DNA of 64,000 nucleotides from positions 1,345,001 through 1,409,000 of the forward strand of contig JAGYJG010000001.1 of the NCBI GenBank assembly GCA_018402155.1. The letters run 5' to 3'. The position numbers and the translations under genes were made by a program. This DNA is from Bacteroidia bacterium. Its GTDB lineage: Bacteria; Bacteroidota; Bacteroidia; NS11-12g; UBA9320. Below, in pieces: positions 9,111-61,136 of this stretch (positions within the stretch are counted from its first letter, which is position 1; every line of letters starts with the position of its first letter). The notes under the pieces were generated by a model. It saw only the letters and a program-made list of their open reading frames with translations, did no database searches and had not been told where the DNA came from.

Positions 9111-10457
9111 ATGTTAACACCACTAACAGCAATAAGCCCAATAGATGGCCGATACAGAGAAAAAGTGCAAGAGCTTGCACCGTATTTTTCAGAATATGGC
9201 TTATTTAAATACCGAGTTTGGGTTGAAATAGAATATTTTATAGCTCTTTCCTCACTAGGTTTGAAACAATTTCCTTCTATAACTTCGGAGATGCAAGTTT
9301 TTTTAAGAAATCTTTACCAAAATTTTAGCGAAACTGATGCCCAGCAAATCAAAGACATAGAAAAGACTACCAACCACGATGTAAAAGCCGTAGAATATTT
9401 CATTAAGGAAAAACTAAAAACCACCAAACTGAAGGAATACCTCGAGTTTGTTCATTTTGGACTTACCAGTCAAGACATTAATAACACCGCTATACCCTTA
9501 AGTTTGCAACTAGGTATAGATGAGGTAATAATTCCCAATGTAAAGAATATACTTGATCAGTTGTTGACCTTAGCAACGCAGTGGAAACATATACCAATGC
9601 TGAGCCGCACACATGGGCAAGCAGCTACACCTACCACTGTGGGCAAAGAATTTGCCGTATTTGCAGAGCGTATAACTATACAACTAGAAACACTAATCAA
9701 CACTCCGTTGAGTGCAAAATTTGGAGGGGCAACAGGTGCTTTTAATGCACACAAGCTTGCTTACCCCGCCATAGATTGGCCAACATTTGGAGACAAACTA
9801 GTGGCAGAACTCGGTCTCATACGGAGCTATCCTACAACTCAGATAGACCACTACGACCAATTAGCCGCAGTATTTGATGCTATGCGTCGTATCAACGTTA
9901 TTTTCATGGATTTTGCAAAAGATGTGTGGCAGTACATCAGCATGGATTTTTTTAAACAGCGCATCATAGCTGGGGAAGTAGGGAGCAGCGCAATGCCCCA
10001 CAAAGTAAATCCTATTGATTTTGAGAACGCCGAAGGAAATCTTGGTATAGCCAATGCCTTTCTCGACCACCTAAGCAATAAACTACCAATAAGCCGTTTG
10101 CAAAGAGACCTTACTGATAGTACGGTACTCCGCAATGTGGGTGTTCCCTTATCGCACATTCTTATAGCCTTAAAAAGTTTGAACAAAGGTATTGGAAAGC
10201 TCATATTAAACGAAGATGCAATACACTCAGACCTAGACAGAAATTGGGCCGTAACAGCTGAAGCTATTCAAACAATACTTAGACGGGAAAAAGTAGAAGG
10301 AGCCTACGAACTTCTAAAAGATCTCACGCGCACAAATGAAGGAATAAACGCTGAAAGTATAGTTAAATTTGTGCAGAATTTGCCTGTGAGTGACGCTGTA
10401 AAAATTGAAATAAGCAATGTCACTCCTTTCAACTATTTAGGATATGCTTCATTCTAA
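9111..10457 (+). CDS. purB: Adenylosuccinate lyase
   Basis: Catalyses two steps of purine synthesis: SAICAR to AICAR plus fumarate, and adenylosuccinate to AMP plus fumarate. It is 448 residues, the usual length for the E. coli-like class. Visible catalytic parts are H168 (SRTHGQAATP) and the signature loop GSSAMPHKVNPIDFENAEGN starting at residue 291, with S292/S293 as the acid-base serine. It is first of a plus-strand run of four genes and overlaps the next ORF by 14 nt. Confidence 0.97.
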   Translation: MLTPLTAISPIDGRYREKVQELAPYFSEYGLFKYRVWVEIEYFIALSSLGLKQFPSITSEMQVFLRNLYQNFSETDAQQIKDIEKTTNHDVKAVEYFIKEKLKTTKLKEYLEFVHFGLTSQDINNTAIPLSLQLGIDEVIIPNVKNILDQLLTLATQWKHIPMLSRTHGQAATPTTVGKEFAVFAERITIQLETLINTPLSAKFGGATGAFNAHKLAYPAIDWPTFGDKLVAELGLIRSYPTTQIDHYDQLAAVFDAMRRINVIFMDFAKDVWQYISMDFFKQRIIAGEVGSSAMPHKVNPIDFENAEGNLGIANAFLDHLSNKLPISRLQRDLTDSTVLRNVGVPLSHILIALKSLNKGIGKLILNEDAIHSDLDRNWAVTAEAIQTILRREKVEGAYELLKDLTRTNEGINAESIVKFVQNLPVSDAVKIEISNVTPFNYLGYASF

Positions 10458-44837: not shown

Positions 44838-45956
44838 ATGAAAGCAGCTAAAACATCTCAATCCTCTATAAATCAAAAGATTACCATCTACAAACCACTG
44901 CCCAAAAGCAAGCGAATAAAGATACACATACCGTATGAGCTTAAAACGGAAAGAGAATCTTTCAAACAGCTCAACACTTCATTTTACCACCCTACTCAAA
45001 AGCTATGGAGTATTGTGAATACGGAGGAGAATAAAGAAGAGGTGAGAAAGCTATTTAAAGGCAAATTGGTAGTCAAGGACACAGATACCACGCCTGCCCA
45101 ACCTAAGGTATTGCTATCAGAAAAAAGCCAAAACGAGCTAGATAAAAATTACCAAAAACTGGTGCTAAAAGGGCTAAGCACAAATACTATAAATACCTAC
45201 CAAGGAAACTTGGTGCAGTTTTTCTCCTACTTTGAAAATGCTGATTTGCACAATGTTACCAAAGATCAGATCGAAGGCTTTGTGTATACCTTGGTAAGTA
45301 AATATAAAATAAGTGAGCAAAAGCAAAACAGTGTAATAAATGCCATAAAGAGCTATTACGAGCATACACTAGGCAAGCCGCGAGAATATTATAATATAAC
45401 ACGACCCAAAAAGAGTAAAGACTTGCCTAACGTACTAAGCAAGGAAGAAGTGAAAGCCATTATAAACTCGCCACAAAACATAAAACACAAGGCTATACTG
45501 TACACCATATATAGCGGGGGATTGCGGCTAGGCGAACTGATTCGGCTGCGGGTAACGGATATACGCAGCGACGAAGGATTTATTTTTATAAAAGACAGTA
45601 AAGGCAAGCGGGATAGACACACCGTTTTAAGTCCTAGCTTGCTGATAATACTCCGGCAATACTACAAATCACATAAACCCAGTTACTGGTTATTCGAAGG
45701 ACAGGATGGCGGGCAGTATTCTGCCACCAGTATACAATCCATATTTCGAAAATCGGTAAAGGACACGAAATCAAATCCTTGGAGCACGCCACACACATTG
45801 AGGCATAGCTTTGCTACGCATCTATTACAAGCAGGGGTAAGCATGAGGCACATACAAAGTGCATTAGGACACAGTAGTAGCAAGACAACAGAGGTATATA
45901 CCCACGTAATGAATATTTCTAACAAAACCATAAAAAGTCCTTTGGATTTATTGTAA
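44838..45956 (+). CDS. Tyrosine recombinase at base of cassette array
   Basis: 372-residue site-specific recombinase. Residues 1-80 are an extra N-terminal region (RIKIHIPYELKTERESFKQL, FYHPTQKLWSIV). The SAM-like core-binding domain spans about 95-185. The catalytic domain has R230 (SGGLRLGEL), a beta-hairpin Lys (K255/K257), H319 and R322 (HTLRHSFATHLL), H345 (LGHSS) and the nucleophile Y354 (EVYTHV). It ends KSPLDLL, like integron integrases (VRSPLDAL in IntI1). The IntI-specific insertion of about 20 residues before the HxxR box is missing. It points towards the attC-like array, which it is the obvious candidate to mobilise. Confidence 0.9.
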   Translation: MKAAKTSQSSINQKITIYKPLPKSKRIKIHIPYELKTERESFKQLNTSFYHPTQKLWSIVNTEENKEEVRKLFKGKLVVKDTDTTPAQPKVLLSEKSQNELDKNYQKLVLKGLSTNTINTYQGNLVQFFSYFENADLHNVTKDQIEGFVYTLVSKYKISEQKQNSVINAIKSYYEHTLGKPREYYNITRPKKSKDLPNVLSKEEVKAIINSPQNIKHKAILYTIYSGGLRLGELIRLRVTDIRSDEGFIFIKDSKGKRDRHTVLSPSLLIILRQYYKSHKPSYWLFEGQDGGQYSATSIQSIFRKSVKDTKSNPWSTPHTLRHSFATHLLQAGVSMRHIQSALGHSSSKTTEVYTHVMNISNKTIKSPLDLL

Positions 45957-46065
45957 GGTTTAGTTAATTTTGGGGGGTAATAGAAATGATACGTATAACC
46001 AGTTCACAATGTTTCATCGTATACCTTTTTAATGAGACATGTTTTCTATAGTGTACATAGTGGAA

Positions 46066-46111
46066 ATATGCACAATAGGGTGTTTCTATTGCGCATATAC
46101 TGATGTTAGCA
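46066..46111 (+). repeat. First att-like site (attI candidate or worn attC)
   Basis: A 13-bp hairpin with one mismatch (ATATGCACAATAG / CTATTGCGCATAT, 7-nt loop) is followed by TACTGAT and the core GTTAGCA (46105-46111). The same TACTRATGTTAGCA ends the site at 58181. The left core is worn (TAC instead of AAC). It lies 110 bp after the integrase stop, where an attI would be expected, and marks the left edge of the array. Confidence 0.55.
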
Positions 46112-46131
46112 TTTATTAAAAAGAACAAACT

Positions 46132-48186: not shown

Positions 48187-48318
48187 AGCTAACAGCACCT
48201 ACACGCAAGTGGGGGTTCAGTGCTTCTATGAAAGTGAAGTGCTAAATCAAAGTTCAGTACTTTTAATGAAGTTCAGTGCTAAAAATCCCCACCTGCGTGT
48301 AGCTGCAAAACGTTATGC
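48187..48318 (+). repeat. attC-like site, 132 bp
   Basis: Left core AGCTAAC (48187-48193), right core GTTATGC (48312-48318). The inner arms TACACGCAAGTGGGG and CCCCACCTGCGTGTA pair with one mismatch, and the extra bases near the right core (GCTGCAAAAC) resemble the unpaired bases of attC. From AAC to GTT it differs from the site at 51080 by only five substitutions over 124 nt. Confidence 0.85.
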
Positions 48319-48359
48319 TTAATTTTAAAAACTACATTAACCACTTAAAATATCATTTT

Positions 48360-48941
48360 ATGAAAAATACAATTTTAATTTTAGTCATGTTAATTGTTTC
48401 AAATTTGACACATGGACAAAACAATTACGACAAGATTTCGGAATTTGGGCAGTACAATGGAGACTGGGCATTGGTAGAAAGCAACGGGTTATTAGGGTTC
48501 ATTGACAGAGAAGGGAATGAGGTAGTTAAACCTAAATATGACAAGATTTCGGAATTTGGGCAGTACAATGGAGACTGGGCATTGGTAGAAAGCAACGGGT
48601 TATTAGGGTTCATTGACAGAGAAGGGAATGAGGTAGTTAAACCTAAATATGACAAGATTTCGGAATTTGGGCAGTACAATGGAGACTGGGCATTGGTAGA
48701 AAGCAACGGGTTATTAGGGTTCATTGACAGAGAAGGGAATGAGGTAGTTAAACCTAAATATGACAAGATTTCGGAATTTGGGCAGTACAATGGAGACTGG
48801 GCATTGGTAGAAAGCAATGGGTTATTGGGTTTCATTGACAGAGAAGGAAATGAGGTAGTTAAACCTAAATATGATAAAATTCAAAACGAAGGGAAATTAC
48901 AAGGCGAAACAGAAGGGAAAATTGAAATAATAAAAAACTAA
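48360..48941 (+). CDS. Secreted protein with four near-identical WG repeats
   Basis: 193 residues from the ATG at 48360 (MKNTILILVMLIVSNLTHGQ, a signal peptide). An earlier in-frame ATG at 48315 lies inside the attC core and lacks a good signal. The mature part is four tandem 37-residue WG repeats (DKISEFGQYNGDWALVESNG...). The stop codon overlaps the next attC-like site. It is the only gene of a 756-bp cassette. Function unknown; a surface binding role is inference. Confidence 0.8.
   Translation: MKNTILILVMLIVSNLTHGQNNYDKISEFGQYNGDWALVESNGLLGFIDREGNEVVKPKYDKISEFGQYNGDWALVESNGLLGFIDREGNEVVKPKYDKISEFGQYNGDWALVESNGLLGFIDREGNEVVKPKYDKISEFGQYNGDWALVESNGLLGFIDREGNEVVKPKYDKIQNEGKLQGETEGKIEIIKN
48429..48872 (+). 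repeat. Four tandem 111-bp repeats
   Basis: Units start at 48429, 48540, 48651 and 48762. The first three are identical in DNA; the fourth differs by a few silent changes (for example AGCAATGGG for AGCAACGGG). Each unit encodes one 37-residue WG repeat. Recent slippage or unequal exchange is the likely origin, and the repeat number is expected to vary. Confidence 0.95.
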
Positions 48942-51079: not shown

Positions 51080-51211
51080 CGATAACAGCACCTACACACA
51101 AGTGGGGGTTCAGTGCTTCTATGAAAGTAAAGTGCTAAATCCAAGTTCTGTACTTTTAATGAAGTTCAGTGCTAAAAATCCCCACCTGCGTGTAGCTGCA
51201 ACACGTTGGTG
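51080..51211 (+). repeat. attC-like site, 132 bp
   Basis: Left core CGATAAC (51080-51086), right core GTTGGTG (51205-51211). Same arms as the site at 48187 (TACACACAAGTGGGG / CCCCACCTGCGTGTA). The cores differ while the interior is shared, as expected if each core travels with its cassette end. Confidence 0.85.
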
Positions 51212-51412
51212 ATAACCTAAAGAAAGAAAAGTAGGCGAGTTAGTGATTGCGAAAAAAGCAGTATATTAGTCGACCGAACCATTCGCTTGTAAACGAATGC
51301 AGCTCTGGACAAAGGTTAAAACCAGCATTAAAAACTGCAAGAACTTAATCAATTCTCGCAGCAATTTTAATGTTTCCGAAGAAAACGGAACGGTTTAAAC
51401 AAATAAGACAAA
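51205..51412 (+). repeat. Structured cassette leader, copy 1
   Basis: A 200-nt untranslated stretch before the metalloprotease gene. Its first 164 nt (51205-51368) are identical to 57587-57750. Three hairpins follow each other: CATTCG/CGAATG at 51280-51299, CTGCaAGAA/TTCTcGCAG at 51335-51361 and TTCCG/CGGAA at 51374-51390. The third keeps its stem in copy 2 although the bases around it change. It could be a promoter region, a regulatory RNA or a translation element. It holds no ORF. Confidence 0.7.
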
Positions 51413-54400
51413 ATGAAAAAAACAATTTCAACAAAACTAAAGTTATTTTTAGGATTAATGGCTGTAGGTGTTTTAGCGTCAGGACAGTGTGAAATGCCAC
51501 ATGATTCCTTACCTAACTTTTCAAATGGACTAGTAGCAAGCGGAGCTTGTAATATTTCATCAAATTATACTCCAAATGAAGAATACTTAGATAACTATTC
51601 TACTATTCATATCAGAGTTGATTTCCACGTATTTCAAAAAGATGATAGCTCAGATAATTTTCAAAATACAACAAATGATAAAAATCACTTAATTGCAATT
51701 CTAGATGATGTAAATCGTAGATACTCAAACTTAGTTACCCCATTCCCTTCAGGAAATTTGATTACAGATTCTAGAATTAAATTTGTTTTGGGAGGCATTT
51801 ACTTCTACCAAAATTCGTCCATTGCTGTTGATATGAACAGGTCTAAAGCAAATCAAGCACTTACGATTATACACAACAATTCAAGTTTATCTAACGATCA
51901 AAAGTTTAACACACTACATATCATTCATGGCATTGGAATATATGGAGGTCTAGCAAGTTGGTTTAATGATAAAGATTGGATATATGTAAAGAACTACTAT
52001 GGTGATTATCTTGCAGACTCTTATGATGGTACGTTTAATTATTCTATTGAAAAAAATAGTGGGCATTTGTCTCATGAAATCGGGCATTCTCTTGGTCTGT
52101 GGCACACTTTTCAAGGGGGCAATAATTGCTCTGATATAGGTTCAAATGTTCAAGGGGGAACTAATAACATGATGGATTATGTAGCATCGCCATATGAGTA
52201 CGAATCTCTCTCAGAATGCCAATTAGGCATAATCCAAAAGAATCTCAAGGGGCTATCTGGAGGGAATATTAGTGATTGTGTAATACCAACTTTTTGTTCA
52301 GTAAACCCACTAGAAAATATTGAAATTAAAAACGGCGAAAACGATGTATGGAACAACCCTAGATTTTTGAACGGCGACTTGCTGGTTAAAAATGGGGGGG
52401 TTCTTACCATCAAGTGCTACACCTCCGTTCCAAGTGATGGGAAAATTATAATTGAGAAAGGTGGGAGTTTAATTATAGATGGTGGCATAATAAGTAACGA
52501 GTGCAATCAACAATGGCAAGGAATATATGTAGAAGGTGATCCTAATAAATCCCAGGTCCCATTTAGCAATCAGGGATATGTAAGAATAATTAATGGAGGC
52601 ACCATAGAACATGCACGAACAGGTATTACTTTATGTGGCCTTAATTCTTCAGGTAACATTGATTTATCAAAAAGTGGTGGCTTAGTTATCGCCAAAGACG
52701 CAATTTTTCAAAATAATTGGAGGGACATCTCATTTACTGGATACCACAATCTGCCTTATACTGTTGCATTTGCAACCCCTAACCTTAGTAGTTTTAACAA
52801 CTGTAGCTTCATAACGACCAACGAATATCGAAGTGATCACGTTAATGATATATGGCCTAATGTAACTATGTGGGGAGTGGTTCAGGTAAAATTTACTGGT
52901 TGTACTTGGCACGATCAAAGGGATGGCTCTATCGACCCTAGGCTAGATGATTACCTACAAAGAAGAGATGGTTTGTTTGCAATGGACGCAAGTTATAGGA
53001 TAACGGATTTATTTGCTATGAGACCATTGGAAATCCCTTCTCCTTCTATTGCCACGAGTTATTTTAAAAATATGCGATATGGGATACAATCTTTGGATAA
53101 TCCGCTTGCTGGTAATAACTTTACTAATGGAAGACCAAGCACAGTACAAGATGCACAGTTTGAAAACTGTCTTGGGGGGATTTATCTCAGTGGAGTAGAA
53201 GGGGCTTTACTTACAAGAAATAACTTCCAAATAGAGCCGTATGATGTGCCAAACTTCAGAGAGATTGAGGCTTACGGAATATACTTAGACAACAGTAATG
53301 GCTATCAAACTGAGGGTAATACTTTTTCATCAAACTGGGCAATAGACCCTGTAGCTAATCTTTCAGTTGGGATTATAACCAATGCCAATGAGAATCGAAC
53401 TAATAGGATTTATCGCAACTATTTTAACGATAATTTACTAGGGGCAGAAGCTATTGGTTGGAATCGACATCAAAATGTTGGTTCATATCCAGAAATAGGT
53501 TTGAAGTATCGATGCAATGATTTTGGTTCATCTAGTGATAACAACTTAGATATTTGGGCGACCCACCACCAAACGATTCCTTATTCAACTGCACAGACTG
53601 GTTTGCCTCAACAAGGCAATTTATTTGACCCAATGGGAAATCTATTCGGAGTTTATGGAACGAGTGGGCATCGTCACTTTAACTACCTACAAAGTCCTAG
53701 TAGTTTTGTTCAATACTTTCATCACGACCTGACAGTTGAGCCTAGAGTAGAACCGAATATACAATGGGGAGTAAATAACTTTAGTGTTGGATCATCTTGG
53801 ACAACATTCAATGCTGAATGTCCTGATAATACCAGTTCAGGTTACCTAGTAACTCAAAGTCATATTGATAAAGTCGATTTTGATCTTGTTGAAATGAAAA
53901 TTAAACGAACACAATTAAAGCAGTTTGTTGATAACGGTAATACCATTGATGTTGTTCAGAGAATACAGACCGTTAATGCTAATACTATTGGAACATTAAT
54001 ATCTGATTTAACCAGCTATTCACCCTATTTATCAGACGAGGTGTTACTTACTTTGAGTACTTCAAATACGCCGATAACTCATCTACAGATTAGAGACATA
54101 TTAATGCTAAACCCTCACAGTTCGGGAAACCCGAATGTGATTGCATCGTTACAAAATAGATCAGATAATTATCCTGCTAGTTACATTGCTGATATTCTTT
54201 CTTTAAATAATACACTCACCGCAAGAGACTCCCTTGTAGCGGAAGTTTATCATCATAGTAACGAATATGATAATGGTGTAAACAGTATTTTGATCAGGGC
54301 TCTTAATGATAGTGTGGATAGATTTGAAGAATTGGTAGAACCAATTTTACTTGCTTCAAATAGACCACAACACAGATACCGTTTAGCCGCTTTATATGAC

Positions 54401-55054
54401 AGTAGAGGTGATTCTACTGAGGCACAACAGATTCTTTCTGCTATTCCAACAATGGAAAGTTTTGAAGCTTCACAGCTAGACTATCACAACGACCTTATGG
54501 CACTACGTTCCTTGCTTAAGACTTGGCGTGAACAAATTATAGATTTATCCAACCTTGATTCCTCGAGAATTGCAGCACTAAAAGTGTATGAGAATAAAAC
54601 GAATGGTATTCAATATAAAGTGTATCCTATATTAGCGTTGAACAAATCTTCTACGTATATAGCTCCAATCTACATGCCATCTGTTCCACCTTCAAGTGCA
54701 ATGAGCACCAACAATGCACAAAATAATGAAGGAGTGGATGATGAGATTGATTCTTCAATTCCTGTTGAATCACGACTTTATATAGATAGATCAATGAATA
54801 GTAACTATCTTAATGTCTATCCAAATCCTACTCAAAAATCATTAAACGTAGCTTATATATTGGAAGATGATATTGCTGGTGCTGAGATTATTATTTATGG
54901 TTTAGATGGCAAGGTGCTTAATCGTATTGTAATTTCAGACTCACATGGTAGAGAAACGATCGATGTAAGTACTATGAGAAATGGGCAATATATCTGTGCG
55001 GTAGTAGCACAAGGCATTAAGTTGAAGCAATTGAGATTTGCTATTACACGATGA
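51413..55054 (+). CDS. Large secreted metzincin protease, T9SS cargo
   Basis: 1213 residues. Signal peptide (1-24). The metzincin site is HEIGHSLGLWH (H221, E222, H225, H231) with a Met-turn NMMDY (252-256), as in M43/pappalysin-like proteases. A long region follows, with a parallel-beta-helix look (repeated GGIYLSGVEGALLTRNNF, GIYLDNSNGYQTEGN). Then comes a helical part, and a T9SS sorting domain ends the chain (NVYPNPTQKSLNVAY, LKQLRFAITR). First of three overlapping genes in a 6.4-kb cassette. Confidence 0.85.
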   Translation: MKKTISTKLKLFLGLMAVGVLASGQCEMPHDSLPNFSNGLVASGACNISSNYTPNEEYLDNYSTIHIRVDFHVFQKDDSSDNFQNTTNDKNHLIAILDDVNRRYSNLVTPFPSGNLITDSRIKFVLGGIYFYQNSSIAVDMNRSKANQALTIIHNNSSLSNDQKFNTLHIIHGIGIYGGLASWFNDKDWIYVKNYYGDYLADSYDGTFNYSIEKNSGHLSHEIGHSLGLWHTFQGGNNCSDIGSNVQGGTNNMMDYVASPYEYESLSECQLGIIQKNLKGLSGGNISDCVIPTFCSVNPLENIEIKNGENDVWNNPRFLNGDLLVKNGGVLTIKCYTSVPSDGKIIIEKGGSLIIDGGIISNECNQQWQGIYVEGDPNKSQVPFSNQGYVRIINGGTIEHARTGITLCGLNSSGNIDLSKSGGLVIAKDAIFQNNWRDISFTGYHNLPYTVAFATPNLSSFNNCSFITTNEYRSDHVNDIWPNVTMWGVVQVKFTGCTWHDQRDGSIDPRLDDYLQRRDGLFAMDASYRITDLFAMRPLEIPSPSIATSYFKNMRYGIQSLDNPLAGNNFTNGRPSTVQDAQFENCLGGIYLSGVEGALLTRNNFQIEPYDVPNFREIEAYGIYLDNSNGYQTEGNTFSSNWAIDPVANLSVGIITNANENRTNRIYRNYFNDNLLGAEAIGWNRHQNVGSYPEIGLKYRCNDFGSSSDNNLDIWATHHQTIPYSTAQTGLPQQGNLFDPMGNLFGVYGTSGHRHFNYLQSPSSFVQYFHHDLTVEPRVEPNIQWGVNNFSVGSSWTTFNAECPDNTSSGYLVTQSHIDKVDFDLVEMKIKRTQLKQFVDNGNTIDVVQRIQTVNANTIGTLISDLTSYSPYLSDEVLLTLSTSNTPITHLQIRDILMLNPHSSGNPNVIASLQNRSDNYPASYIADILSLNNTLTARDSLVAEVYHHSNEYDNGVNSILIRALNDSVDRFEELVEPILLASNRPQHRYRLAALYDSRGDSTEAQQILSAIPTMESFEASQLDYHNDLMALRSLLKTWREQIIDLSNLDSSRIAALKVYENKTNGIQYKVYPILALNKSSTYIAPIYMPSVPPSSAMSTNNAQNNEGVDDEIDSSIPVESRLYIDRSMNSNYLNVYPNPTQKSLNVAYILEDDIAGAEIIIYGLDGKVLNRIVISDSHGRETIDVSTMRNGQYICAVVAQGIKLKQLRFAITR

Positions 55055-56649
55055 TGAGGATTTTTATCACATTTTATATTATTTTGGGTACGAGCTTGTT
55101 GGCTCGTGCCCAAAATTTATATGATTTTGTTTTGACTGATGGCTGGAAGGCATCAAAGGTGTTTCATAGTAACGAAGACACAAATATTATTGTCGGACTA
55201 GTCTCTGATCCTAATCCAAGTGCATTTCATCGTTTTCATTTCACGACATTAGACAAGAATAATGATGTTATCAAAATCGATACGTTCAATCTACCATGGT
55301 CTAATTTTGTATCTTACCAATCTCCGTTTGGAATACAGAAGGATGATGGCGACATATTTATCAATGGGCACTTCTCTACCCAAAATGGTAATTATTCAGG
55401 AGGCGTTTTTCGATTTAAAGATGGACTAGAGTTAGAACAGTTTGATTCAGTGCCTTACGGAGGTACTAGCTCAGTATTTTCTTATATTTCAAGGAAAAAT
55501 ACCCAAACCGATATTTTTTACGGAGGATATCAAGATGGAAGTAGAGGAAATAGTGTACAAACTTATTTAACCCTTATACGTAATGAAGACACCACCATTA
55601 GTACATTTAATAATGGAAACTTGTTATCAGAATATGGTGATTGCATTACACTGCCACGGCAGCTAATATCCTCTAATGATGGCGGGTACTTGCTAGTTAA
55701 TACTCTAAAGCCTGTATCATGGGCGGAAAGAGAGGCATATCAAGGTCTTATAATAAAAGTGGACAGCTTAGGAGATGAATTGTGGCGTTTGCCTATATGG
55801 GAAGATAGTACTACCGTATATGATTTATTAGTTGCCCCATTGGCAAATGGCAATTATTTGGCAGTGTATCAGGACAAATGGTACCAACCCAATAAATCAC
55901 CTTGGGGCAATCATATTGCAGATGCAAACCCAAATTCGGTTACTTGGCTCGTAGAGTTCAATTCTAATGGAGAGATAATAAAAAAGTGGAATCTGCGAGA
56001 AAATCTTGAAAAAGTATTAGGTAAACGCAGATACTTAAATGGATATAGCAACCTACACATAGAAGAAAATGGAGATCTAGTATTTGTAGGTTATTCTAGG
56101 GACAATGGCAAATATGGGTACGACGTAGGTTTTTCTTTAAAACTGGATAAAAACGGAAACTTCAAGTGGTATAGACAGTATGAAGTAACCGTAGCCGGAC
56201 CTTATAACAGTGGGGAAGAGAACATCTTTCTTTATGGCATATCCAAATTAAGAAATGGAGGATATGCACTTTGTGGAGAGTACCGAAGTCACCCAAGTGA
56301 TAGTTTTCCTAGTGGTTGTCAGAAAGGGGTGGTGCTTTTTGTAGATAGTTTTGGGTGTATGGAGCCTGGATGTCAGAAGAATGACAATATCGGCGTAGCT
56401 GAATTACAAGCAGCTAAGTCGTTATTTTCGGTATATCCTAATCCGAGCAGTTCGGAATTCCATATCTTAAATACCAAATCACAAACACCAAATAGGCTAG
56501 AAGTGTATGATGCGTATGGACGATTGGTCTATGCTCCAAAAATAGTAACCAAAGTTCTGAATGTTTCTCATCTAACTCCAAATATCTATTATCTCAAATT
56601 ATTCCGTTCCGACGGCTTTTACGAAACACATAAAATAATAATACAATGA
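55051..56649 (+). CDS. Secreted T9SS-sorted protein, possible beta-propeller
   Basis: 532 residues. Signal peptide (MMRIFITFYIILGTSLLARAQ). Repeated units of the type DGGYLLVNTLKPV, NGNYLAVYQDKW, NGDLVFVGYSRDNG and NGGYALCGEYRS suggest a beta-propeller. It ends in a T9SS sorting domain (VYPNPSSSEFHI, GFYETHKIIIQ). Its ATG overlaps the protease stop, and its own stop overlaps the next gene, so the three are coupled. No enzymatic site recognised. Confidence 0.75.
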   Translation: MMRIFITFYIILGTSLLARAQNLYDFVLTDGWKASKVFHSNEDTNIIVGLVSDPNPSAFHRFHFTTLDKNNDVIKIDTFNLPWSNFVSYQSPFGIQKDDGDIFINGHFSTQNGNYSGGVFRFKDGLELEQFDSVPYGGTSSVFSYISRKNTQTDIFYGGYQDGSRGNSVQTYLTLIRNEDTTISTFNNGNLLSEYGDCITLPRQLISSNDGGYLLVNTLKPVSWAEREAYQGLIIKVDSLGDELWRLPIWEDSTTVYDLLVAPLANGNYLAVYQDKWYQPNKSPWGNHIADANPNSVTWLVEFNSNGEIIKKWNLRENLEKVLGKRRYLNGYSNLHIEENGDLVFVGYSRDNGKYGYDVGFSLKLDKNGNFKWYRQYEVTVAGPYNSGEENIFLYGISKLRNGGYALCGEYRSHPSDSFPSGCQKGVVLFVDSFGCMEPGCQKNDNIGVAELQAAKSLFSVYPNPSSSEFHILNTKSQTPNRLEVYDAYGRLVYAPKIVTKVLNVSHLTPNIYYLKLFRSDGFYETHKIIIQ

Positions 56650-57500
56650 AAACACTTATCGCATTAACAACTTTGTTAATAACCTTGTCAGCAAATGCTC
56701 AGTATTTCGGAAGAAATATCTGCTTCCTTGAAAAACACATCAACCATACGTCTAATACCTTCTCTGGAATAGTAGCTCACCTAACTTATCTAGATTCTAC
56801 TAATGTTGGGGATTTATATAGCTTTAAGTCCGATACGATTATAGAACGGAATGATTCTATTTTTCTTAAAACTATTACACCAGCACAGGATAAACATACA
56901 TCCTTATTGTTTTCTATGGCAATAAAAGAACTAGATAGTTTTTTTTTACAGCACATTTATCACAACGGAGAGGTAGAGGATATCATATTTTATGTAGATT
57001 CAGTAGTTTTTAATGGCGTTTGTGAAATCACATATTTTCATAACAAGCCAACCCAATTTGGATATTCAGAAAATTTTGCTTGGCGTGATAGCTTAGGAGA
57101 TGTAAAATTTGGGCCAAACTATACCGATGTGTTTAACCAGATTGATTATTCCATCGAATTTTTGGCTTATTCAAAAAATAATGAATTCTATTATATGGAT
57201 GGCCAATCATGGCAAACTTTAGGTGACACAAGTTGTAAATTTGAAGAAAGCCTAAGAACGTTGACAGTTAGAGACATCAAAGTGCAACAACTAGTCGTGC
57301 ATCCAAACCCAAGCTCTAGCTATCTCTATATTAAAGATAGCGTGCTTAAGGCATACAAAGTTTACAACTCCTATGGCATATTGGTTATGCAGGGTGTTGA
57401 GGCAGGGCGACTTGATATATCTAATCTAAAAACTGGTGTTTATTATGTAGAATTGTTCGATCATAATAATGTTTTACGAGGAAAATTCACTAGAGAATAA
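56646..57500 (+). CDS. Secreted T9SS-sorted protein of unknown function
   Basis: 284 residues. Signal peptide (MKTLIALTTLLITLSANAQ). The mature part is beta-rich without a known motif, and the end is a T9SS sorting domain (VVHPNPSSSYLYIKDS, LKTGVYYVELFDHNNVLRGK). It overlaps the upstream gene by 4 nt (ATGA). Last gene of the cassette, 11 nt before the attC-like site. Confidence 0.7.
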   Translation: MKTLIALTTLLITLSANAQYFGRNICFLEKHINHTSNTFSGIVAHLTYLDSTNVGDLYSFKSDTIIERNDSIFLKTITPAQDKHTSLLFSMAIKELDSFFLQHIYHNGEVEDIIFYVDSVVFNGVCEITYFHNKPTQFGYSENFAWRDSLGDVKFGPNYTDVFNQIDYSIEFLAYSKNNEFYYMDGQSWQTLGDTSCKFEESLRTLTVRDIKVQQLVVHPNPSSSYLYIKDSVLKAYKVYNSYGILVMQGVEAGRLDISNLKTGVYYVELFDHNNVLRGKFTRE

Positions 57501-57511
57501 GAAAGGCTAAT

Positions 57512-57593
57512 CACCAACACTGTGTATAACGTAATGCCGCTCCTACCCACACGCCATACAAGTGCGGCACTACGTATACACTTGCCGTTGGTG
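57512..57593 (+). repeat. attC-like site, 82 bp
   Basis: Left core CACCAAC (57512-57518), right core GTTGGTG (57587-57593). Arms GTGTATAaCGTAATGCCGC and GCGGCACTACGTATACAC pair along about 18 bp, with a bulged A on the left strand and one mismatch. The short length and extrahelical base are classic attC features. The cores on both sides are complementary because the next cassette shares the same leader. Confidence 0.87.
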
Positions 57594-57794
57594 ATAACCT
57601 AAAGAAAGAAAAGTAGGCGAGTTAGTGATTGCGAAAAAAGCAGTATATTAGTCGACCGAACCATTCGCTTGTAAACGAATGCAGCTCTGGACAAAGGTTA
57701 AAACCAGCATTAAAAACTGCAAGAACTTAATCAATTCTCGCAGCAATTTTTAATGTTCCGCAGAAAACGGAACGGTTTAAACAAATTAGAAACA
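57587..57794 (+). repeat. Structured cassette leader, copy 2
   Basis: Second copy of the leader at 51205, identical over its first 164 nt and similar to the ATG and about seven codons beyond. The third hairpin is GTTCCG/CGGAAC here, one pair longer than in copy 1. It introduces only a truncated reading frame. Confidence 0.7.
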
Positions 57795-57881
57795 ATGAAA
57801 AAAATAATTTTAACAAAAATGGTAATGCTAGCGGGACTGGTTATTGCCTTTATGTCTTGTAACGACATTGAGCTGTTGTAA
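57795..57881 (+). pseudogene. 28-codon lipoprotein signal remnant
   Basis: Reads MKKIILTKMVMLAGLVIAFM, then SCNDIELL and a stop: a lipoprotein signal with lipobox FMSC and almost nothing after it. The first codons resemble those of the protease gene that follows leader copy 1. Most likely the 5' end of a cassette gene whose remainder was lost. Confidence 0.6.
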
Positions 57882-58074
57882 GCTCCCCCAAAAATAGTAC
57901 GGAATAAAAGTAGAAAATTAATAATTTTTACAATTGTCAACAAATACATATCTGCCGACAAGCAATGTGAGAAGAAAACTTTGAAGAGTCTCCTCCAGTG
58001 GCGGATAAACTTTTGGATTTAGTTTAAGAAAAGCATATTTTTGAGAACACGATATGAGAATAAACGTACCCACT
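57882..58074. other. Decayed cassette interior
   Basis: No intact gene. A short frame around 57968-58026 reads EENFEESPPVADKLLDLV before a stop, and could be the 3' end of the lost lipoprotein gene. CTCCCCCAAAAATAGTACGG at 57884 directly follows the remnant and resembles an insertion-sequence end, without a partner that I can find. Confidence 0.4.
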
Positions 58075-58181
58075 TCACCAATAATGCTTTTTAACTATAT
58101 CAATGAACCAATTCAAAGTTGCGTAGATAGTAAAAATAGACGCATGTTTTGTGGGGAGTTACGTCTATACTAATGTTAGCA
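58075..58181 (+). repeat. Degenerate attC-like site
   Basis: Expected left core TCACCAAC is TCACCAAT at 58075-58082. The right core GTTAGCA (58175-58181) is intact and matches the end of the next cassette. Near the right end TAGACG and CGTCTA form a short stem with TAGTA/TACTA beyond it. The site closes the decayed cassette. Confidence 0.5.
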
Positions 58182-59451: not shown

Positions 59452-60240
59452 ATGAAAAAAACATTAATTACATTATTTTTAGTAATCGGAACATTCGCAG
59501 CAACTCAAGCTATACCTCCACTTTTTGGTCCAAATGGAACACTTAGCATGTGGAAGTGTAGTTGGAATAGTGATCTGTCGATTACAGACAATGGAGACGG
59601 TTCCTGTGGCTTTACGAGAAGTCAGACATGCACTCACTGGCTTTGGGGTTCGCAAACTAACGGCTACGAATGGTCTAAACCTTGCGGACAGAATGGGACA
59701 AATGGAGATGGAGACGACAAACCTTTTGATTGCCCCTGCGGTGTAGGAGTTGAAGCGCACTTAATTGCAGATGCAATGGTTGAAATAAATGCATCTGGAA
59801 TATCTGTTCCGAGCCAGTTTATGGATGAGACTATATTATCTACAGACAACCAAGTACTTGAAGACTGTTTTATTTTCCGAATGACGCTAGCTGGCTATGA
59901 CATGACTGACGCACAGATGTTCGATCCTTGTTATATCCCATCTACTACACTTCCTGTTCAAGTTCCACTTTTCGGTCCTCTTCCGATAAAACTTGATTGT
60001 GCTACAGTAGCACCCAATCCTGTAAGCGATATTTTATCAATTAATCTAAATGGCTTAGAAACACAGATTACAAAGATTCAACTTATTGCAAACGGTAGCG
60101 GTTTAGTAGTTCTCGAGTTAGCTAACCCTATAAGTCCTATAGTAACAATTGATGTAAATAATTACGACCATGGTTTGTACAATTTACTACTTTTCAGAAA
60201 TGAAGAGGTTCTATCAAATCTAATACAGATTATTAATTGA
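59452..60240 (+). CDS. Secreted cysteine-rich T9SS-sorted protein
   Basis: 262 residues. Signal peptide (MKKTLITLFLVIGTFAATQA). The first part of the mature chain has many Cys, Trp and Gly (KCSW, GSCGF, QTCTHW, PCGQNGTNGDGDD, CPCG), suggesting disulfides and metal or surface binding. The C-terminal third is a T9SS sorting domain (VAPNPVSDILSINLNG, GLYNLLLFRNE). First of three overlapping genes in the cassette. Confidence 0.7.
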   Translation: MKKTLITLFLVIGTFAATQAIPPLFGPNGTLSMWKCSWNSDLSITDNGDGSCGFTRSQTCTHWLWGSQTNGYEWSKPCGQNGTNGDGDDKPFDCPCGVGVEAHLIADAMVEINASGISVPSQFMDETILSTDNQVLEDCFIFRMTLAGYDMTDAQMFDPCYIPSTTLPVQVPLFGPLPIKLDCATVAPNPVSDILSINLNGLETQITKIQLIANGSGLVVLELANPISPIVTIDVNNYDHGLYNLLLFRNEEVLSNLIQIIN

Positions 60241-61136
60241 GAGTTTTTCAATCTATAATATTGTTGTTAGCGGCACAAATTTGTGCTGCTAACAACAATT
60301 TTACTTTCTTAATTAGGGTGGATAATTTCAATATTGACACTGCAATTATATCTCAAAAATGCAAACGTCAAATTGTAGATATATCTAAAGACAGTATCTC
60401 AATATTCACTAAAAAAAGTATAGAAACAATCAGTATTAATGTAGCTAATTACTACCCTTATTTTCTTGAACTTGATAGATCCATACCAAAAAAGGTATAT
60501 CATATTTCTTTAATCCAAATAAATAACGTCAATTCTGTCTATAATACTCTTAACAGACATTCCAATAAAACAATAGATATCATACCCCTTGGCAGTGTTA
60601 AAAAAAACTCTGAAGGCAGACGGGCTGCTTATACACCAATTTTTAATGGACAGAGTTTTTTGTTGCCCGTTTTCATACCAGAGTCCAACTCATTAGTGCT
60701 TGAAAATTTATCTATGTATATAAATAAATTTACTACTCCTTTTCAATCAATTGCTGTAGAAATTACAATAATTAAAACCGATGCCCACAATAGAGTAAAG
60801 GATTTGTGTAGAATTTCACAAGATACTGCTCTAATTTTAGGGAGAGATACTTTTCAAATCACAAATAAGGGTCTTTATGGCATTTCTCTTCAAACAAAAG
60901 TCAGTGGCTCCTTTCTTATTGTTTTAAACCATATATATAAAAAGCAAACAGCGACAGAGTATATCAACCCTATATTTTTCGGAATTGGCAAACGAAAATT
61001 ATTCAACAATAATAATCTAACTCACATAAATTTGGGTTACGTGAAACATCATAAAAAAGCAATAACCACAGATTTACAATATCCATTTAACATAACTAAA
61101 AATGAGCAAATTTCCTTTCAACTCAATTTCAAATAA
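60237..61136 (+). CDS. Secreted protein of unknown function, TTG start
   Basis: 299 residues if it starts at the TTG that overlaps the previous stop (TTGA). The translation begins MRVFQSIILLLAAQICAANN, a good signal peptide, which supports that start. The mature part is beta-rich with no known motif. No T9SS domain. The next gene overlaps its 3' end by 35 nt. Confidence 0.6.
   Translation: MRVFQSIILLLAAQICAANNNFTFLIRVDNFNIDTAIISQKCKRQIVDISKDSISIFTKKSIETISINVANYYPYFLELDRSIPKKVYHISLIQINNVNSVYNTLNRHSNKTIDIIPLGSVKKNSEGRRAAYTPIFNGQSFLLPVFIPESNSLVLENLSMYINKFTTPFQSIAVEITIIKTDAHNRVKDLCRISQDTALILGRDTFQITNKGLYGISLQTKVSGSFLIVLNHIYKKQTATEYINPIFFGIGKRKLFNNNNLTHINLGYVKHHKKAITTDLQYPFNITKNEQISFQLNFK

Follow-up and report, generated by a model that had tools for sequence, protein, structure and literature searches.

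Leader A opens gene cassettes of an integron-like system: it begins at the cassette joint, ends at the base before the start codon and is present in 14 full or partial copies in one Bacteroidota genome of 2.49 Mb. With moderate confidence, we interpret it as a cassette-borne structured mRNA leader that would provide a common expression control for many cassettes. The leader has a set location, recurs in many cassettes, is conserved beyond the genes that it precedes and is swapped between them as a module; its RNA would act in cis. The window—the whole stretch of 64,000 nt that was analysed, C1:1345001–1409000—contains two copies, and the features around them are as follows.

44838–45956, + strand: tyrosine recombinase of the array, integron-integrase-like (Phage_integrase, 5e-37)
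45957–46112, + strand: attI-like site 3′ of the recombinase, with near-identical sequence at C1:388097 and before L007 (C1:944180)
51084–51207, + strand: attC-like site of the preceding cassette, joint at 51205 between G and TT (scan score 30; 96% identical to 48190–48314)
51205–51412, + strand: leader A copy 1, from the cassette joint to the base before the ATG (sequence comparison, genome search)
51205–51321, + strand: 5′ domain of leader A, approximately 117 nt (alignment A1; breakpoint at nt 117 in L005)
51205–51218, + strand: 5′ strand of the closing helices P1/P2, its first bases being the R′ half of the recombination core (predicted fold, duplex test)
51234–51275, + strand: hairpin P3, containing TATATTAG, the sole weak −7-like sequence (predicted fold)
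51280–51299, + strand: hairpin P4, CATTCG–loop–CGAATG, invariant in 14 copies (predicted fold, alignment)
51313–51326, + strand: 3′ strand of P1/P2, AGGTTAAAACCAGC in copy 1 (predicted fold, duplex test)
51326–51372, + strand: hairpin H3 of the type 1 tail (predicted fold; weak attC-scan signal)
51374–51390, + strand: hairpin H4 of the type 1 tail, TTCCG–loop–CGGAA (predicted fold)
51391–51412, + strand: A-rich unpaired stretch before the start codon (sequence, predicted fold)
51413–55054, + strand: cassette 1 gene 1, a 1213-aa secreted protein with a weak M43-type metallopeptidase match and a T9SS tail
55051–56649, + strand: cassette 1 gene 2, with a T9SS tail and a 4-nt overlap with gene 1
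56646–57500, + strand: cassette 1 gene 3, with a T9SS tail
57516–57589, + strand: attC-like site of cassette 1, with R″ CACCAAC complementary to the leader's R′ GTTGGTG
57587–57794, + strand: leader A copy 2 (sequence comparison, genome search)
57795–57881, + strand: 28-codon remnant ORF with a signal peptide, its first 26 codons being those of the intact gene of L005
58133–58177, + strand: attI-region-like sequence in the broken cassette (compared by eye with the region downstream of the G010 recombinase)

Elsewhere in the window, the ORF at 48315–48941 contains tandem 111-nt repeats (48423–48866), and close to the start of the ORF at 60237–61136 lies an overlapping palindrome (60256–60303) with 31-nt arms that are 94% complementary.

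The two window copies are identical over exactly 164 nt (51205–51368 and 57587–57750) and share only one base upstream of the joint, which bears out the first-pass annotation on both the identity and the start at the cassette join. The similarity, which the annotation had followed to the ATG, does reach it and continues at 96% into the signal-peptide codons (51204–51436 versus 57586–57818). The description of a duplicated leader before two adjacent cassettes stands in part: both copies are real and copy 1 heads a cassette, but copy 2 heads a broken one and the genome total is 14, not 2. An absence of further copies had been named first among the findings that would count against the idea; because the genome holds 12 additional ones, this objection falls away. 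The broken cassette (57795–58177) consists of leader A with the 28-codon ORF and then a sequence resembling the attI region of another recombinase, followed by a new joint.

All copies lie on the + strand (genome search, E below 1e-43) in three regions, C1:388–399 kb, 944–960 kb, and 1396–1428 kb, and a covariance model recovers the same set in its own genome. Every one of the 14 starts at a cassette joint and leads into an ATG. Common to them is the almost invariant 5′ domain (alignment A1), in which nt 15–100 show at most two differing positions in any pair among 12 copies. Two alternative tails connect this domain to the ATG: type 1 runs to approximately 90 nt, holds two hairpins and occurs in eight copies, whereas type 2 is A/T-rich, spans approximately 50 nt and occurs in six. 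Both end in an A-rich stretch, and the signal-peptide codons are alike too in most copies.

The recombinase of the array resembles integron integrases: it scores 187 bits against TIGR02249, below the cutoff of 265, and likewise does not reach the curated cutoff of NF040815. In the alignment with IntI4 (2A3V), 15 residues of the query span the stretch between residues 186 and 244 of that chain. Relative to 2A3V, the protein is short of approximately 43 residues in this stretch, where the IntI-specific insert is located, and the array thus lacks the integrase with IntI-specific insertion that marks a canonical integron. The locus at 44838–45956 is a non-canonical platform without this insert, yet with attI- and attC-like sites. 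A second copy of the recombinase (C1:386988–388097) is 97% identical to the first, and the attI-like sequence at C1:388097 adjoins it downstream. The leader cassette of L007 is directly joined to attI-like sequence, which is sequence evidence that attI receives cassettes. In all three arrays, a scored scan finds cassettes flanked by sites that have inverted arms and AAC and GTT cores—imperfect-palindrome attC sites with joints between G and TT, as expected of a cassette array. R″ of each cassette is complementary to its own R′, the flanks deviate from the canonical GTTRRRY, and an attC scan with strict canonical cores did not recover the real sites of the arrays. Because of the missing insert, the sub-cutoff integrase and the non-canonical flanks, the system is classed from its sequence as integron-like and not as a canonical integron. 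At C1:944020–944180 (L023), an attI-like site is followed by a leader A cassette in first position, and no full recombinase gene was found alongside. The leader A cassettes at C1:944180 and C1:388778 belong to different arrays, one being placed at attI and the other behind an attC, and are identical in leader and in their 717-aa protein. Near the second array, at C1:935884–935954 (L023:5884–5954), lies a DUF805 RNA motif of Rfam (RF03081, 53.4 bits).

Both window copies of leader A fold better than shuffled sequences (z of −3.1 and −3.8). Instead of the three successive hairpins described in the annotation, the predicted fold features a multibranch domain, in which 51205–51218 pairs with 51313–51326 around two hairpins, and two more hairpins after it. 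The fold is closed by the recombination-site core (GUUGGUGAUAACC), which pairs with a segment approximately 100 nt downstream. In eight of the 10 distinct copies, fewer than 2 in 100 shuffles achieve this pairing of the 5′ end, and in five of the 10 it is reached in at most 3 of 2000. The pairing is seen across three variants of the 3′ strand of P1/P2 (ACCAGC, CACCGAC, and CATCGAC); it is lost in L006, where R′ is replaced, and weak in L014. Double-sided compensatory changes were absent from the 5′ domain in automatic consensus folding, as well as from every pair among the six distinct type 1 copies. The annotation's point that the last stem survives sequence changes is hence weak: the window copies differ there by an indel and a loop base, without covariation. 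Taken as a prediction, the folding of leader A into a closed RNA domain is supported, though not proven.

An alternative sees leader A chiefly as a promoter module at the DNA level, whose conservation would reflect promoter and operator sites and by which cassettes would be transcribed independently of attI in the manner of the gene-less promoter cassettes of Vibrio. We consider this possible but unlikely. The position and the sharing of the leader match what such a module would require, cassette-borne promoters are known (PMC11014356), and the weak −7-like TATATTAG is invariant in 14 of 14 copies. Motif scans of leader A, however, were negative for sigma-70-like sites on the + strand and for the Bacteroidota TAnnTTTG box, with only TATATTAG remaining, and the −33- and −7-like pieces sit on opposite arms of a single hairpin. 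For the Vibrio gene-less cassettes, promoter prediction did not match experiments and in silico calling proved unreliable (PMC11014356), so that the absence of a motif neither proves nor excludes a promoter and counts as weak evidence. Should P1 be real in the RNA, transcription would have to begin 5′ of the leader; this fits poorly with a promoter inside it and is one of the points against the structured-leader interpretation. The annotation's proposal of a cassette-borne promoter, a cis-regulatory RNA or a translation enhancer is partly supported: as a portable expression element would predict, the leader is cassette-borne, runs from joint to ATG, occurs in many cassettes and is conserved beyond the coding sequences, but it shows no recognisable promoter box, no covariation of the last stem and no copy in the other Bacteroidota searched. 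A conserved leader peptide as in the attenuator of cmlA was excluded, the candidate ORFs varying in length and frame and being absent from L010 and L011.

The proteins behind leader A are secreted and belong to at least six families: an M43-like T9SS group; a C10 peptidase; an S74 protein; a small unknown protein; and two more groups of long proteins, one T9SS-tailed and the other without a Pfam match. More generally, the arrays of this genome encode T9SS-tailed proteins, which places it in the Bacteroidota. Between homologous cassettes, the 5′ domain is 91–100% identical, whereas fourfold sites of the genes are 25–42% identical and thus saturated: 97% versus 30% (62/210) for L001/L006; 94% versus 42% for L004/L009; 91% versus 29% for L007/L010; and 91% versus 25% for L007/L011. 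The leader is hence conserved far beyond the coding sequence, a pattern for which recent duplication of whole cassettes does not account, so that selection or local homogenisation must act on the leader.

Homogenisation alone would make leader A an ordinary 5′ UTR of no special function, kept alike by homologous recombination between cassette fronts (concerted evolution), which we regard as improbable. It draws on a clear mosaic in L005, whose first 117 nt are exactly those of L010/L011 and whose nt 108–287 are exactly those of L003, with unrelated sequence after. In addition, the gene behind leader A in L013 has a homologue at C1:955688 (52% protein identity) that lies behind the very different leader C, and signal-peptide codons are shared along with the leader. 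Both cases imply that leaders were exchanged between genes. Recombination, as judged from these sequences, takes place at cassette fronts, and this weakens the argument from conservation alone; the copies, all from one genome, represent few independent events. On the other hand, the conserved tracts are short with unrelated DNA on either side, the strong conservation fades after the ATG and signal peptide, and the leader families B and C are under independent constraint.

The structured-leader interpretation accommodates these data as follows. Leader A would be a portable 5′ UTR module of approximately 117 nt that opens with the cassette's half of the recombination core and is followed by one of two tails, the A-rich translation start and the signal-peptide codons. 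Secreted-protein genes of six or more unrelated families would thereby come under the same expression control wherever the cassette sits in the array. The fold may act in cis on mRNA stability or on the start of translation, and the leader perhaps shields the gene against read-through transcription and against attC hairpins that lie upstream. A bolder variant, which we consider very unlikely, is an RNA switch: the R′ core would have two alternative partners, R″ of an attC upstream (when transcripts read through) and the 3′ strand of P1/P2, and the cassette would sense read-through from its neighbour and set its own expression, many unrelated secreted-protein cassettes being wired in this manner. 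Least probable of all, and very unlikely, is that the 5′ domain represents a gene-less mini-cassette that became fused. Its borders would be the core GTTGGTGATAACC and, in degenerate form, the inverse core (GGTTAAAACCAGC, or CACCGAC), and the P1/P2 complementarity would be the relic of recombination-site pairing instead of an RNA helix. Cassette fusion has precedents (PMC4670013), the 3′ strand as read from the sequence agrees with the expected inverse core GGTTATCACCAAC in 10 of 13 positions and H3 is detected by the attC scan with scores of 22–27, but these scores overlap the chance hits of that scan, the type 2 tail is without such a hairpin and the arrays read contain no free-standing copy.

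In the genomes and loci searched outside its own genome, leader A was not found. The covariance-model search of other Bacteroidota that the annotation had proposed returned only the genome's own copies, with none among 107 other genomes of the order or among 394 others sampled from the class; a hit in G044 (E = 0.03) was judged to be chance, and a DNA hit in G023 lies inside coding sequence. A 17-mer scan of GTDB and IMG/VR yielded 93 loci with no real match to the model (best E = 0.38), a scan that needs an exact match and that diverged copies could therefore escape. Several contigs of the same genus stop at or near the recombinase, and since sister arrays are hence largely unassembled, the absence of the leader there is weak evidence. 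Rfam 15 has no match at leader A in the window and none at the gathering threshold at leaders of other arrays.

Leader A can be set beside four known or proposed systems. The cmlA cassette of class 1 integrons has its own promoter and a long 5′ UTR with translational attenuation (PMC8876359); it resembles leader A in carrying a long structured leader before the gene, but concerns one gene and a leader peptide, whereas leader A precedes 14 cassettes with largely unrelated genes and has no conserved leader peptide. The gene-less promoter cassettes of Vibrio superintegrons (PMC11014356) likewise offer cassette-borne expression control away from Pc; they are separate and act on neighbours, whereas leader A is fused to the front of its own gene's cassette and a promoter role is only a candidate. 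An aminoglycoside riboswitch was proposed at cassettes of class 1 integrons (PMC7588185) and is experimentally disputed (PMC9410878). What it has in common with leader A is the concept of a structured and conserved leader heading the cassette, and it cautions against over-reading conserved sequence there; its sequence, however, is the integration site, whereas leader A is conserved approximately 100 nt past the core and is owned by the cassette. Fused integron cassettes (PMC4670013) suggest a possible origin for a module at the cassette front, but consist of two gene cassettes joined after loss of an attC. What is new, within the scope of these searches, is that one leader heads many cassettes whose genes are unrelated. 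A shared leader would be one possible answer to how genes distant from the attI promoter come to be expressed in long arrays. If cassettes can carry a standard control region, insertion anywhere could give coordinated expression, and the swapping of leader plus signal peptide between genes is a possible route to new secreted-protein cassettes. Since the recombinase of this array is without the IntI-specific insert, the range of systems for studying such control is wider.

The same arrays contain two further shared leader families, B and C, which behave like leader A and speak for the structured-leader interpretation; structured leaders are thus a recurrent property of the cassettes in this genome. 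They do not look like a general property of such integrons: no shared leaders were seen in the integron-like arrays of G063 and G030, where the repeats inspected proved to be attC sites or copies of a single gene-less cassette. In the array of G063, from another species, a gene-less cassette-like sequence occurs three times (L248, 12929–13310, 14890–15269, and 16121–16386).

Family B (GTAATATGCAAGTAAG...) has five copies, at C1:1410557, 1415982, 1435314, 1440414, and 205093 (− strand), and its sites also include L225 and L226. In its hairpin, both sides are changed in five of 13 pairs when relatives from two other genera are counted, and its covariation score was reached by no shuffle. The core at the joint of this family is GTA instead of GTT, and in the two other genera the gene after the leader encodes an apparent homologue of a protein that is found behind two of the copies here.

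Family C has four copies and, in addition, one in a genome of the same genus; Rfam gave no credible match for it. Its core GGTGAAACGTGGCAACTAAGCACCAAGC...GGAGTTAGCC recurs in a genome of another family, with 50 nt that are 90% identical; the flanks there have diverged, and the core precedes the start codon of a gene that begins with a signal-peptide-like stretch. The sites of family C are L215 (C1:955688), L221, L222, L223, L211:1039–1229, and L247 at approximately 9680–9730 (minus strand). The core, also written GGTGAAAYRTGRCAACTAAGCACCAAGC...GGRGTTAGCC, lies in the 5′ region in another family of the order. Its GGUG and CACC segments enclose GGCAACU, which could pair with the downstream AGUUAGCC in a pseudoknot-like arrangement.
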